From: Acidimicrobiia bacterium
GTDB taxonomy: Bacteria; Actinomycetota; Acidimicrobiia; IMCC26256; JADLDD01
Direction: 5' to 3'
Assembly: GCA_020846855.1 (NCBI GenBank)
Contig: JADLDD010000024.1
Span: 1-47,684, forward strand
Length of the DNA stretch: 47,684 nt
Of the stretch, positions 41,285 through 47,684 are shown piece by piece. Below the pieces are notes generated by a model, which worked only from the letters and a program-made list of their open reading frames with translations, made no database searches and was not told the DNA's origin. The translations under genes were made by a program, and so were the position numbers. Position 1 is the stretch's first letter. Every line of letters starts with the position of its first letter.

Positions 41285-41412
41285 GGCGCCGAGAGTACCG
41301 GCGGGTACCCTGGGGCCGCGGCAAGAGCAGCGGCGTCCACGCCCGGACCCCGGCCCCGGGGTGGGCGGGCCGGAGCGCCCCGGCGCCTTGCACGCGGCGA
41401 CGCGGGGGACAC

Positions 41413-43269
41413 GTGACCAACGACCCGACGGTCAACGACAAGGAGTCGCGGCGCGCCGGCTGGCGGCTCATGTGGAGCGCGACCCGCCCCGAGACCGGGT
41501 GGCTCGTCACCGGTGTGGTCGCGGGCCTGGTGTGGACCGGGGCCAAGCTCGTCGTCCCCCTCCTCGCGGCCCGGGCCGTCGACGACGGGATCCGGCGGGG
41601 TGAGAGCGGGACGGTCGTGCGCCTGGTGGTGGCCATGCTGGTCGTAGGGCTCGTCCAGGCCGTGGGCACGGGCCTGCGCCGCTACGCGGCCTTCCACATC
41701 GCCCTGCGGGCCGAGACCGACCTCCGCCAGCGGCTCTTCACCCGGCTCCAGAGCCTCCACTTCTCGTTCCACGACCAGTCGCAGACGGGCCAGCTCATGG
41801 CCCGGGCCAACACCGACATCCAGCAGATCAACACGGCGCTGGTGCTGATCCCGCTCACGGTGGCGAGCTTCATCACGCTGGCCGGTGTGGCGGTGATCAT
41901 GGTCCTGAAGAGCCCGTTGCTCGCGCTCCTGGCCCTCGGCACCCTGCCCTTCCTGAGCCTCGCCGCGACCCGCTTCAGCCGGAGGCTGGCGCCCGTGAAC
42001 CTGGCCCTCCAGGAGGAGCTGGCCGACGTGTCGGAGGTCGCCGAGGAGACCGTCGCGGGCGTCCGGGTGGTGAAGGGCTTCGGGGCCGAGGCCCGCCAGG
42101 TGCGGCGCCTGACAGCCGAGGCCGACGCCGTCCTCGACCGGGCCCTCGACGCGGCGCGGCTGCGGGCCCGCTTCCTCCCCCTTGTCGACTTCCTTCCCAC
42201 GCTGGCGATGGTCGCGATCCTCTGGTACGGCGGGCACCTGGTGCTCGACGGGCGCCTGGAGGTCGGCGACATCCTCGCCTTCAACCTCTACGTGCTCATG
42301 CTGATCTGGCCCCTGCGGATGGCCGGGATGCTGGTCGCGCAGGCGTCGCGGGCGTCGGCGTCGGGCGGCCGGATCCACGAGGTCCTCGCCACCGAGCCCC
42401 GCATCGCCGATCGCGCCGGCGCGGCGGCGCTGCCGCCCGGCCGGGGGACGCTGGCCTTCGAGGGCGTCCGGTTCGGCTACGGCCCCGGCCCGGCCGTGCT
42501 CAACGGTCTCGACCTGCGGATCCGCGGCGGGGAGGCGGTCGCCCTGGTCGGGGCGACGGGCTGCGGCAAGACCACCGTCGCCCGGCTCGTCCCCCGCTTC
42601 TACGACGTCGAGGGCGGGCGGGTGACGCTCGACGGCGTCGACGTGCGCGACCTGCGCCTCTCGGAGCTGCGCCGGGCGGTCGGGATCGTCTTCGAGGACA
42701 CGTTCCTGTTCTCGGGGACCGTGCGCGAGAACATCGCCTTCGCCGACCCCGACGCACCGGTAGACGACGTGCGCCGGGCCGCGCGCCTCGCCGGCGCGGC
42801 CGAGTTCGTGGAGGCTCTCCCCGACGGCTACGGCACGATGATCGGCGAGCACGGCTACTCGTTCTCGGGCGGTCAGCGCCAGCGCATCGCGATCGCGCGT
42901 GCGGTGCTCGCCGACCCGCGGGTCCTGATCCTCGACGACGCGACGTCGGCCGTCGACCCCACCAAGGAGCACGAGATCCGCTCCGCGCTCCGTGAGGTGA
43001 TGGCCGGGCGGACCACGCTGATCATCGCCCACCGTCCCGCGACCGTGGCCCTGGCCGACCGGGTGGTCCTCATCGACGGGGGCCGGGTGGCCGCCGAGGG
43101 CACGCACGAGGAGCTCCTCGTGACCTCGCCCCGCTACCGCGCCGTGCTGGCCGCGGCGGAGCTCGAGGCTTTGCTGCGCACCGCCGGCGACGACGCCGGC
43201 GAGGTGGACGGCGGCGAGGACGCCGGCGGTGTCACGGCCGCCCGCAGCGGCGAAGGGGGCCCGGGTTGA
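41413..43269 (+). CDS. ABC exporter half-transporter (permease-ATPase), degenerate-site subunit
   Basis: [14 protein letters not shown] (Walker A), [29 protein letters not shown] (Asp in place of catalytic Glu). Confidence 0.95.
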
Positions 43270-45101
43270 CCCCCGCCGCCGCCGACGAGCGCCTCAGCCG
43301 GGCCGACGCCTCCCCCGTGGTGCGGCGCCTGGCGTCGATGCTGCGCGACCGGCGGGGCGAGCTGGCCCTGGCCACGGCCGTCGTGGTGGGCCAGACGCTG
43401 TGCCTGCTCGCCGGCCCGTGGCTGGTGAAGCGGGGCGTCGACGCCGGCCTGATCGGCGACGACCCCCGGGCGCTGAACGTCGCCGCCGTCCTCTACCTCG
43501 TGTCCGCGGTCCTCGGCCTGCTGTTCGGCCGCTGGGCCATCTGGCTGGTCAACCGCGTGGGGGAGAGGTTCCTGCGCGACCTGCGGGTGCGGGCGTTCCG
43601 GCACGTCCTCGACCTCGGCATGGACTTCTACGAGCGCGAGCCGACCGGCCGCCTGGTGTCGCGCCTCACCTCCGACGTCGACATCATGGAGCAGCTCGTC
43701 TCCCAGGGTCTCGTGATGTTCGTCCAGAACGCCCTGCTCCTCGTCGGCGCGGTGGTGGCGGTGTTCGCCATGAGCTGGCCGCTGGCCCTGTGCACCCTCG
43801 TGATCGTGCCGCCGGTGGTGTGGGTGACCCGCTGGTTCCAGCGGGCGTCGGGTCGGGCCTACGTGGCCGTGCGGGAGCGCATCGGCGAGACCCTGACCAC
43901 CCTCCAGGAGGGCCTGGAGGGGGTCCGGGTGGTGCAGGCCTTCAACCGCCAGGGTGGCTTCATCTCCAAGTTCCGCCGCACGAACGAGGCCCAGTACGAG
44001 GCCAACCTGGAGGCGGTCCGGATCTCGGTCCGCTACTTCCCGGTCATCGAGCTGGCCGGCGTGGTCGGGATCGCCGTGATCGTGGGCATGGGGGCGTACT
44101 TCGTGGACCGGGGCACGATCACGGTCGGGGTGGTGCTCGCGTTCGTCCTGTACCTCAACAACCTCTTCGAGCCGATCCAGCAGCTCGGCCAGCTCTACAA
44201 CACGGTGCAGCAGTCCGGCGCCGGCCTCCACAAGATCCTGGTGCTGCTCGACACCCCCTGCTCGGTTCCGGAGCGTCCCGACGGCGTGGAGCTTCCCCGC
44301 CGGGGCGACCTCGAGGTGAGCGGCGTGTCGTTCGGCTACGGCGACGGGGTCACGCCCGACACCGACGGCGTGGTCCACCCCGCCGGCCCCGACGTGCTCA
44401 GCGGCGTCGACCTCACCGTCGCCGCCGGGGAGCGCCTGGCCCTGGTCGGACCGACGGGCGCGGGGAAGTCGACGCTGGCCAAGCTCCTGGTGCGCTTCTA
44501 CGACCCCCGGCGGGGCCGGGTGAGCTTCGGGGGCGTCGACCTGCGTGACGCCCGCACGTCGAGCCTGCGCGACCGCATCGTGGTCGTGCCCCAGGAGGGC
44601 TTCCTCTTCGCCGGGACCATCCGCGACAACATCGCTCTCGGCCGGCCCGACGCCGACGCCGCCGCGGTGGAGGCCGCCGTCGACCGGCTGGGCCTGGCCG
44701 GCCTGTTCGAGGGCTTCCCCGCCGGTCTCGACACCGAGGTGCGCGAGCGCGGCTCGCGCCTCTCGGCGGGCGAGAAGCAGCTCGTGTCGCTGGCGCGCGC
44801 CGCGCTGGCCGATCCGGCCGTGCTCGTGCTCGACGAGGCGACCTCGAACCTCGACCCCGGGACCGAGCAGCGGCTCGAGGAGGCGCTCGACCACCTGACC
44901 GAGGGTCGGACCGTGGTGGTGGTGGCCCACCGCCTCACCACGGCCGCCCGCTGCGACCGCATCGCGGTCGTCGACGGAGGCCGTCTCGCGGAGTTGGGCT
45001 CACACGCCGATCTGGTGGCCCGGGGCGGTCACTACGCGCGTCTCTGGCGGGCGTGGGACTCGACGGCGCCCACCGGAGGCACGGCCGCGGACCTCCCCTG
45101 A
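43266..45101 (+). CDS. ABC exporter half-transporter (permease-ATPase), partner subunit
   Basis: GPTGAGKSTLAKLLVRFYDP, SRLSAGEKQLVSLARAALADPAVLVLDEATSNLD; TTG start overlapping upstream TGA. Confidence 0.95.
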   Translation: MTPAAADERLSRADASPVVRRLASMLRDRRGELALATAVVVGQTLCLLAGPWLVKRGVDAGLIGDDPRALNVAAVLYLVSAVLGLLFGRWAIWLVNRVGERFLRDLRVRAFRHVLDLGMDFYEREPTGRLVSRLTSDVDIMEQLVSQGLVMFVQNALLLVGAVVAVFAMSWPLALCTLVIVPPVVWVTRWFQRASGRAYVAVRERIGETLTTLQEGLEGVRVVQAFNRQGGFISKFRRTNEAQYEANLEAVRISVRYFPVIELAGVVGIAVIVGMGAYFVDRGTITVGVVLAFVLYLNNLFEPIQQLGQLYNTVQQSGAGLHKILVLLDTPCSVPERPDGVELPRRGDLEVSGVSFGYGDGVTPDTDGVVHPAGPDVLSGVDLTVAAGERLALVGPTGAGKSTLAKLLVRFYDPRRGRVSFGGVDLRDARTSSLRDRIVVVPQEGFLFAGTIRDNIALGRPDADAAAVEAAVDRLGLAGLFEGFPAGLDTEVRERGSRLSAGEKQLVSLARAALADPAVLVLDEATSNLDPGTEQRLEEALDHLTEGRTVVVVAHRLTTAARCDRIAVVDGGRLAELGSHADLVARGGHYARLWRAWDSTAPTGGTAADLP

Positions 45102-45224: not shown

Positions 45225-47321
45225 CTACCCGAGCCGGTCGTCGGTCCGGTCGTCGTCCTGGCGGCGGCGCCGCCGGCGCAGCCCCATCAGCGACGCGCCG
45301 GCGGCGGCGAGGCCGAGGCCGGCGGAGGCCTGGTCGAGGAGCGCCGAGCCGGTGAAGGCCAGCACGCCGGCCTGCTCGGAAGCACCGCCTGCCGGGGCGC
45401 TGGCCCCGGGCCCGCCGACGACCCCGGGGAGGACCTCGATCGGGTTGCCGCCGGGTGGCGTCACGGGCGGGTTCACCGGCGGGTCGACGGGCGGGGTGAC
45501 GGGCGGCGGGTCGCAGGCGTCGTCGTGGTCCGCCTGGCAGACCCGCACGAAGGAGTGGTTGCCGACGACGAACGCGTCGCCGGTGCGGATCACCGCGTTG
45601 CCGGCGATGTGCGACACGTCGACGGACTCGCCGGTGGCGTCGGCGACGGCGACGGCGTCGGGGTCGGCGGTGACGACCGACACCGAGATGTTGTCGCCGG
45701 TGTTGGCGAAGCTGATCCCGATGTTGAGGACCGCGCTCACCTGGCGGACGCTGACCGACGCGTTGCCGGGCATGCCCTCGTCGACCCCGGCCAGCGTCTC
45801 GGCGGCGCTGATGTCGCCGTTCACGGAGAGGAGCGCGCCGCCGAGGTCGATGGCCTCCTGGACGGCGGCGAGGTCGGTGCCGGTGAACGACGGGTCGGTG
45901 AACAGGGCGATGAGGCGCTGGAGTGCCGACTCGGCCGCCTCGACCTGGGCCCGCACGCCGGGGTCGATGTTGGCCAGCGTGAGCGACGAGCCGGCGGCGT
46001 TGAGGCCCGTGTTCGCGACGCCGAGGCCGAAGTTGCCGACCATGGCCTGCTGGTCGGCGGAGGCCACCCCGCCGGAGACCGCGCCCTGCACCTGCTGGAG
46101 GATCCCCGTGGTGGAGTCGTTGCCGACGGCGAGGGCGGTTCCGGCCTGGATGGCGGCCGTGCCGGCGGAACCGCCGGAGAAGGCGCCCTCACCGGCGGCC
46201 GAGGGGGAGATGCCGAACTCGTCGAGGAGCGACTCGATCACCCACTGGATGAGCTGGGCCTGCTCGGGGGAGATGCCCGATGCCCAGGCGGCGTTGAGGC
46301 CGGAGTTGGCGAGAGCGATGCCCACGTTGACGATCACGGCCCGCTGGGCGACGCTGAGGACGCCGCCGTTGCTCGCCACGGCCATGGTGATCTGGACGAT
46401 GCCGGAGTCGGCACGGTTGCCGATGGCGCCGGCGGCGCCGGTGCCGATGTCGGCCTGGGCGCTGCCCGACGTGCTCCCGACCACCGCGGTGGCCTGGGCG
46501 TCGGGGGAACCCTCGGTGTAGAGGGTGCCGACCGCGAGGTTGGTGCCGGTGTCGCCGAAGCCGATGCCGATGTTCAGGACGGTCACGACCTGGCCGGTGG
46601 ACGCGCCGCCGGTGATCTGGGCGGCCTGGATGACCTCGGTCACGGCCTGGTTCCCGGTCACGTTCGCGTTGCCGGAGCCGATCGCCGCGCTGCCGCCGGT
46701 GCCGGCCACGCCGGGCCACGCCGACGCGGCGTTGATGCCGGAGTTGGCGCCGGCCAGGCCGATGTTGATCACCAGCCCGACCTGGAGGACCTCGATCTGG
46801 CCGCCGGAGCTGGCCGTGACCTGGACCTGCTGGTCGATGCTGGACGTCGACTGGTCGCCGGCAGCCACGGCAGGGCCGCTGCCGACGCCGCTGATGGCGT
46901 TCCAGCTCGCGCCCTCGGTCCCGGTGCCGCCGGGGTTGCCGGTCCCGTTGCCGATGGCGACGTTCGACCCGGTCGTGGAGACCGCGGCGCCGCTCGTGGT
47001 CACCTGGGCCTGCTGGTTGGTGGTCTGGGTGGGCCAGGCGACGTCCTCGACGGTGCCGCTCGGCGGGGGAGCAGCGGCGGGGGGCGAGTCGGCCGGGGTG
47101 GGGTCGGCGGCGTCGGTGCCGACGACGGCGTTCGTCTCCGGCGCCGCGGGCGGGGCGGGAACGGGCCAGGCGGCGGCCGGCGGGGGGCTCGACTGCTGCG
47201 AAGGCGCCGCGTCGGGCGGGGCGTCGGCGGCGTGGGCCCGGCCGGCGAGGACGACCATCGCCACGAGGAGCGCGCCGGTCACGATGAACAACTGGAAGGT
47301 GTATCGAAGCCCTCGGTACAC
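45225..47321 (-). CDS. Large secreted repeat protein with C-terminal LAFTG motif, TM and Arg-rich tail (predicted surface protein)
   Basis: Signal peptide MYRGLRYTFQLFIVTGALLVAMVVLAGRAHAAD; five VxNIGIxxANSGxNAA modules; Pro-rich stalk; EQAGVLAFTGSALLDQASAGLGLAAAGASLMGLRRRRRR. Confidence 0.9.
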   Translation of the reverse strand: MYRGLRYTFQLFIVTGALLVAMVVLAGRAHAADAPPDAAPSQQSSPPPAAAWPVPAPPAAPETNAVVGTDAADPTPADSPPAAAPPPSGTVEDVAWPTQTTNQQAQVTTSGAAVSTTGSNVAIGNGTGNPGGTGTEGASWNAISGVGSGPAVAAGDQSTSSIDQQVQVTASSGGQIEVLQVGLVINIGLAGANSGINAASAWPGVAGTGGSAAIGSGNANVTGNQAVTEVIQAAQITGGASTGQVVTVLNIGIGFGDTGTNLAVGTLYTEGSPDAQATAVVGSTSGSAQADIGTGAAGAIGNRADSGIVQITMAVASNGGVLSVAQRAVIVNVGIALANSGLNAAWASGISPEQAQLIQWVIESLLDEFGISPSAAGEGAFSGGSAGTAAIQAGTALAVGNDSTTGILQQVQGAVSGGVASADQQAMVGNFGLGVANTGLNAAGSSLTLANIDPGVRAQVEAAESALQRLIALFTDPSFTGTDLAAVQEAIDLGGALLSVNGDISAAETLAGVDEGMPGNASVSVRQVSAVLNIGISFANTGDNISVSVVTADPDAVAVADATGESVDVSHIAGNAVIRTGDAFVVGNHSFVRVCQADHDDACDPPPVTPPVDPPVNPPVTPPGGNPIEVLPGVVGGPGASAPAGGASEQAGVLAFTGSALLDQASAGLGLAAAGASLMGLRRRRRRQDDDRTDDRLG

Positions 47322-47395
47322 GACTGACCCCTTACGTCGTTTCCCGGAACGTCCCGGGGGTGTCTGGTCCGGGGCCGTCCCCGGGTGGCCGAAGG

Positions 47396-47447
47396 GGTGA
47401 CGGGGGGAGGGAAGCCGTCACCGGATCCCTCCCCCCCTCGTGTCACC
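47396..47447 (-). promoter_or_regulatory. Structured intergenic region with competing hairpins (terminator or attenuator)
   Basis: GGTGAC..GTCACC enclosing GGGGGGAGGGA/TCCCTCCCCCC; alternative GGTGACGG/CCGTCACC. Confidence 0.6.
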
Positions 47448-47463: not shown

Positions 47464-47684
47464 TCAGCCGTTGATCGAGCTGCCGCTCGAGTTGCTGCCC
47501 GCGCTGGCGGAGCCGCTGTTGGACTGCGTCACGGTGGTGCTGCTGCTGTTGCTGGCACTCGCGTTGCCCGTCACGACGGACGCGCTGCTCGTGCCGGTGT
47601 TGGACGACGACGCCGAGTTGGAGGCGTTGCCGCCGACGTTGCCGGCCGTGATGCCGCTCGAGCACTCGACGTTCCCGCCGGAGA
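47464..47684 (-). CDS. C-terminal fragment of Asn/Ser/Gly-rich secreted repeat protein (5' truncated by window edge)
   Basis: Frame open from window end, translation SGGNVECSSGITAGNVGGNASNSASSSNTGTSSASVVTGNASASNSSSTTVTQSNSGSASAGSNSSGSSING*; not in supplied ORF track. Confidence 0.78.
   Translation of the reverse strand, partial: SGGNVECSSGITAGNVGGNASNSASSSNTGTSSASVVTGNASASNSSSTTVTQSNSGSASAGSNSSGSSING

Follow-up and report, generated by a model that had tools for sequence, protein, structure and literature searches.

The window analysed here is a 47,684-nucleotide stretch of an Acidimicrobiia contig, and we found at its right-hand end a large gene for a repeat-built surface protein, the end of a small gene directly upstream on the same strand, and a GC-rich hairpin between the two. 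The large gene occupies positions 45225-47321 and encodes 698 amino acids from a GTG start at 47321. This open reading frame, proposed in a preliminary description of the DNA, proved to be real, with the correction that it lies on the minus strand, as do all features of the gene pair given below.

The protein begins with a predicted signal peptide (residues 1-31, 47229..47321), read from the sequence as ...VVLAGRAHA before the cleavage site and ADAPP after it, in a layout that homologues share. A Pro-rich linker and an N-terminal half module (residues 99-122, 46956..47027, 10.6 bits to the module HMM) are followed by four full modules of about 54 amino acids: module 1 (residues 146-199, 46725..46886, 59.1 bits, E=2.5e-17), module 2 (residues 214-263, 46533..46682, 42.0 bits), module 3 (residues 292-345, 46287..46448, 56.7 bits) and module 4 (residues 391-443, 45993..46151, 58.3 bits). 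A fifth module is degenerate (residues 500-545, 45687..45824, with an HMM match of 21.9 bits at 518-545). A C-terminal half module (residues 578-598, 45528..45590, 6.8 bits) ends in the first Cys of a CQ...C pair, which is formed by Cys 595 and Cys 603 and is conserved in the homologue alignment. The chain closes with a Pro-rich stalk of PPV[TDN]PP repeats (45438..45509) and a cell-wall sorting signal (45228..45362) made up of LAFTG at residues 654-658, a hydrophobic stretch and an Arg-rich tail, with L[AP]xTG in the corresponding position of relatives. The VCQ...C pair, the stalk and the LAFTG-TM-RRRRRR tail named in the preliminary description are thus all present, and are mostly kept in homologues.

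By reading, the protein has the signal peptide, LAxTG motif, hydrophobic stretch and basic tail of a sortase-anchored surface protein. One sortase was detected in the genome, which is 83% complete, and its score with the class E model NF033747 was 198.9 bits (cut-off 160). Class E sortases recognise LAXTG and anchor the long chaplins in Streptomyces (PMC5148588). Since this enzyme of the LAxTG class is encoded elsewhere in the genome, the lack of a sortase gene in the window, which had been pointed out before, is no problem. As a co-occurring gene the sortase is uninformative, because 57 of the 58 genomes of the order have one.

The module has the consensus IxTGxAxAxGNxSxTxIxQ, a variable Gly-containing turn, and then QxAxVxNxGxAxANSGxNxA. 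Six columns are invariant in 28 copies (Gly4, Gly10, Gln19, Gly42, Gly49 and Asn51), Gln34 and Asn40 are nearly so, and conservation alternates along the module. Both halves of the motif occur far more often than in composition shuffles: the GN/GD...Q half was found six times (shuffle mean 0.12, maximum 2) and the VxNxGxxxANSGxN half five times (shuffle maximum 0), which bears out the modular repeats. The regular Gln/Asn/Gly spacing noticed earlier holds within the module, where Asn and Gln stand at fixed places, but not along the core, whose autocorrelation does not exceed that of shuffles. There is no fixed spacing because linkers of 14-75 amino acids separate the modules.

An HMM search of the module, as had been suggested, recognised the large protein at 187 bits (E=3.3e-57) when the protein's own repeats were left out of the profile, and at 111 bits (E=1e-33) when the profile was built from one distant relative alone. 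No other frame among the 388 in the window reached E=1 with the module HMM. For the large protein, its best relative and the partners, nothing scored above cut-off in Pfam, NCBIfam, PHROGs or the PDB sequences, in line with the first impression of an unrecognised module. We found no description of the module family in the open-access literature (subscription journals lie outside this coverage). These results support the view of a surface protein that is built from repeats of an unrecognised module and anchored by a sortase.

Four further genomes of this order (G007, G018, G024 and G040) carry homologues of the large protein, full-length or partial and 39-45% identical, and the large gene is therefore maintained. 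The contig has 74% GC and long open frames on all strands, as would be expected if the frame were a spurious, low-complexity product of GC content. That reading is already refuted by the homologues, which match at the protein level across the whole length; the leave-out HMM score and the conserved signal and anchor speak against it as well. The genomes with homologues are Acidimicrobiia or Actinomycetes MAGs in public records, and the frequency is low, at 8/296 genomes of the class and 8/397 genomes of the phylum sample.

Further relatives vary in length and anchor. The relative in an Acidimicrobiales MAG (L042) is more regular; its 13 modules sit within units 90-107 residues long, its anchor is LPRTG, and profile comparison links it to the large protein with a probability of 99.4% (E=3e-21). 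This 1427-aa protein, encoded at L042 5719-9999, represents the family most clearly and would serve well as a template for structural studies; a plasmid search with it gave no match. G144 encodes a relative of 2390 residues with 22 modules and LAHTG, G259 one of 1309 residues with 11 modules and LPYTG, and G224 one of 496 residues with five full or partial modules and LARTG. The genome of the 22-module protein also holds a second long frame with several module matches (G144:C5:145291-156648, 4228 codons open).

Directly upstream of the large gene, the window retains the 3' end of a small Asn/Ser/Gly-rich gene (47464..47684, 72 codons and the stop), which runs off the contig. Neither this partner gene nor the hairpin that follows it had been noticed in the preliminary description. 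Its product matches a partner profile built from G040, G018 and G007, without the window fragment, at E=1.4e-11. In these three genomes a complete small gene of about 290-330 amino acids, with no anchor, lies upstream of the large one, and its product, judged by its N-terminus, is predicted to be secreted. The partner is present in four of the 58 genomes of the order, all four of which have the large gene; the profile found no match in the 54 others. Only one of those 54 (G024) has the large gene, which there is cut at the contig start, so that its upstream side is out of view.

The arrangement of a small gene before a large one was seen at four loci in the order, the window included, and at five in another actinobacterial order (family f72). 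In these five genomes a 265-279 aa secreted protein precedes the large protein, and the three f72 large proteins read to the end have a C-terminal membrane segment in place of LPxTG. The module is present in the three f72 small proteins scored (E near 1e-10), and is weak or undetected in two of three f72 large proteins. Within the order of the window, the G018 partner matched the module HMM at E 8e-4, its best match scoring twice the best shuffle, while the G040 and G007 partners did not score above shuffles and comparison of the partner and module profiles gave P 0.004-0.02. The layout of an anchored long and a secreted short protein is thus present, and homology between partner and large protein is weakly supported in the window's own order. 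Among the other relatives, the small module protein of G259 is encoded where a contig ends and the large one where a contig begins, so that the two genes may be adjacent. L042, G144 and G224 showed no adjacent small gene in the sequence covered. A further small secreted module protein of 169 amino acids follows the large gene in G373 (L092 3796-4302, minus strand), which suggests a three-gene cluster there. An unsystematic reading of the genes next to the pair revealed none dedicated to export or to a chaperone function.

A GC-rich hairpin lies between the partner stop and the large gene (47395..47447), with a minimum free energy of -51.1 kcal/mol compared with -39.4 for shuffles (z=-3.2). In 9/9 pairs across two orders (the window, L038, L039, L040, L071, L072, L090, L091 and L092), the stop codon of the small gene is followed by a strong hairpin rich in GC. 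The stem is perfect and 11-13 bp long in seven of the nine, equalled by at most 0.3% of dinucleotide shuffles; in the window it is interrupted, and in G007 the hairpin is longer, lies farther downstream and falls outside the 90-nt stretch tested against shuffles. Stems of at least 11 bp followed 7 of 127 control gene ends, five of these seven being ends of genes of the repeat family. Hairpin sequences vary between pairs with the stem kept, and no U-run follows. The natural reading is a partial terminator or message stabiliser that gives more of the small than of the large protein. Alternatively, termination there could be complete and the large gene transcribed from its own promoter.

AlphaFold, run with five sequences, modelled the large protein at a mean pLDDT of 54.3 and a pTM of 0.62. 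Each full module was predicted as a pair of long strands, about 11-20 residues each, connected by a short turn; helices appeared in linkers only, and two variable inserts were predicted to be helical. Foldseek of the model against the PDB and viral models gave no significant match. The top-ranked PDB entry, the FapC amyloid (9nqd), had E 0.7 and TM near 0.1, a non-significant result to which we give no weight. Three modules of the 13-module relative were modelled at pLDDT 38, which is unusable. The beta-solenoid- or amyloid-like nature first proposed for the module is plausible from alternating conservation and predicted strands, but the weak model and the lack of a significant fold match leave it unproven.

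The preliminary description had also likened the spacing to that of functional amyloids of the curlin, chaplin and rodlin types. Membership of the curlin family fails by sequence: the curlin model PF07012 had no match in the window's own genome or in G007, G018, G024 and G040, no curlin match exceeded cut-off across 61 relatives, and the curlin signature (X6QX10Q / NX5QxG) is not enriched in the large protein. No Pfam family matched at E<=1, so there is no chaplin domain either. Since neither curlin nor chaplin models match, we file the large protein among sortase-anchored repeat surface proteins, and it may work like the curlin and chaplin systems.

Chaplins are among the closest known systems, being likewise actinobacterial, with LAxTG-anchored large members (ChpA-C) and secreted small ones (ChpD-H) in Streptomyces, and sharing the class E sortase, GN motifs, a Cys pair and a beta-rich character (PMC13251363, PMC5148588). 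However, the module here is 54 amino acids long with a Gln/Asn pattern, and the partners are hydrophilic rather than hydrophobic. Curli (CsgA/CsgB) likewise combine a major and a minor subunit and are built of imperfect repeats in which inward residues alternate, ending in Gln and Asn (PMC10192328). In contrast to curli, the Asn-to-Gln kernel here spans 9 residues instead of 7, the module 54 instead of 23, and the protein has a sortase anchor. CsgG-type export is an outer-membrane system. The Fap system, with two related subunits (FapC/FapB), has few imperfect repeats, conserved Asn, Gln and Gly, and long variable linkers, and in this respect FapC is instructive by analogy (PMC12392863). Pseudomonas Fap is encoded by a six-gene fapABCDEF operon, whereas a gene pair is found here, and neither Pfam nor a profile search of PDB chain sequences gave a match. 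Generic LPxTG/LAxTG repeat adhesins have the same order of signal peptide, repeat region, Pro-rich stalk and sorting signal, but the present module is absent from Pfam and NCBIfam and is accompanied by a recurrent small partner gene with a hairpin.

As the best-supported account of the gene pair, we propose that the large protein serves as a base, fixed to the wall, on which the secreted partner would polymerise, in analogy to long/short chaplins or CsgB/CsgA; we give this reading a probability of about 0.4. The repeats, anchor signal, sortase, gene pair, hairpin and their conservation are observed, and strand stacking, partner binding, polymerisation and stoichiometry are inferred. The large protein would be secreted and fixed to the cell wall through LAFTG by the genome's class E sortase. 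Beta-arches or short solenoid layers are the probable fold of its modules, every one of which would contribute one N-x-S-x-T-x-I-x-Q strand and one Q-x-A-x-V-x-N-x-G strand, with Asn and Gln lined up. The small anchorless repeat protein would be the more abundant subunit, stacking against the free edge that the anchored protein presents, as short chaplins do with long ones, or CsgA with CsgB, to form a surface fibre or coat. By holding back transcription or stabilising the upstream message, the hairpin would yield more partner than anchor. The recurrent repeat family, alternating conservation, the repeated pairs of 15-20-residue strands in the AlphaFold model, the co-occurring partner, hairpins and class E sortase support this account. 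Against it we count the low AlphaFold confidence, the non-significant Foldseek matches and the weak similarity of partner and module, as well as the three relatives without an adjacent small gene, the weak or undetected module in two of three f72 large proteins, and the failure to recognise an export or chaperone gene beside the pair.

The main rival, almost as likely, is a wall-anchored beta-repeat adhesin or spacer. Here a stable, monomeric beta-solenoid rod made of the modules would keep the protein clear of the wall, the partner would be a secreted matrix protein in its own right, and neither would polymerise. The order of signal, stalk and anchor is that of ordinary sortase-anchored adhesins, relatives of up to 2390 residues and 22 modules would fit a long rod, and the core holds variable inserts, two of them predicted helical. 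On the other hand, Pfam found no ligand-binding tip domain, and such a rod would leave aside the tight co-occurrence with a secreted protein that has the same module in some genomes.

Less probable is a chaplin-like hydrophobic coat protein whose nearly charge-free core would make the surface water-repellent after class E sortase anchoring, as proposed for CwpA and CwpB. The core has a hydropathy of +0.31, no Lys and 7 basic residues in 505, and in Actinoplanes and Streptomyces the class E sortases have hydrophobic coat proteins as their substrates (PMC13251363, PMC5148588). However, family members such as L042 (-0.21) and G259 (-0.17) are hydrophilic, as the partners clearly are at about -0.45. 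We consider very improbable an ice-binding or mineral-binding surface array whose flat beta face would bear Thr/Ser/Asn in regular rows: ice-binding proteins do appear among the non-significant fold matches, but with E>3 and TM near 0.05, continuous TxT rows are absent, and the conserved residues alternate like core positions instead of forming surface rows.

More broadly, and with more doubt than for the anchored base itself, the pair could belong to a functional-amyloid-type system of Actinomycetota that is undescribed and distinct from chaplins and curli. A nucleator anchored to wall or membrane and a secreted subunit that polymerises would have a common 54-aa Gln/Asn module, in a ratio set by the intercistronic hairpin. 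Most of what is known about surface fibres in Gram-positive actinobacteria comes from the chaplins and rodlins of Streptomyces. If the proposal holds, this would be a second, unrelated family of anchor plus subunit, in lineages that are mostly uncultured, and the design would have arisen more than once. It would also offer a defined repeat with Asn/Gln positions open to direct tests of cross-beta stacking. Public genomes contain such gene pairs in full length, which allows in vitro work without culturing the organism.

Convergent with the repeat gene, the window holds two adjacent ABC-type exporter genes (41400-45101, plus strand), and a 15-bp perfect hairpin follows the second of them.
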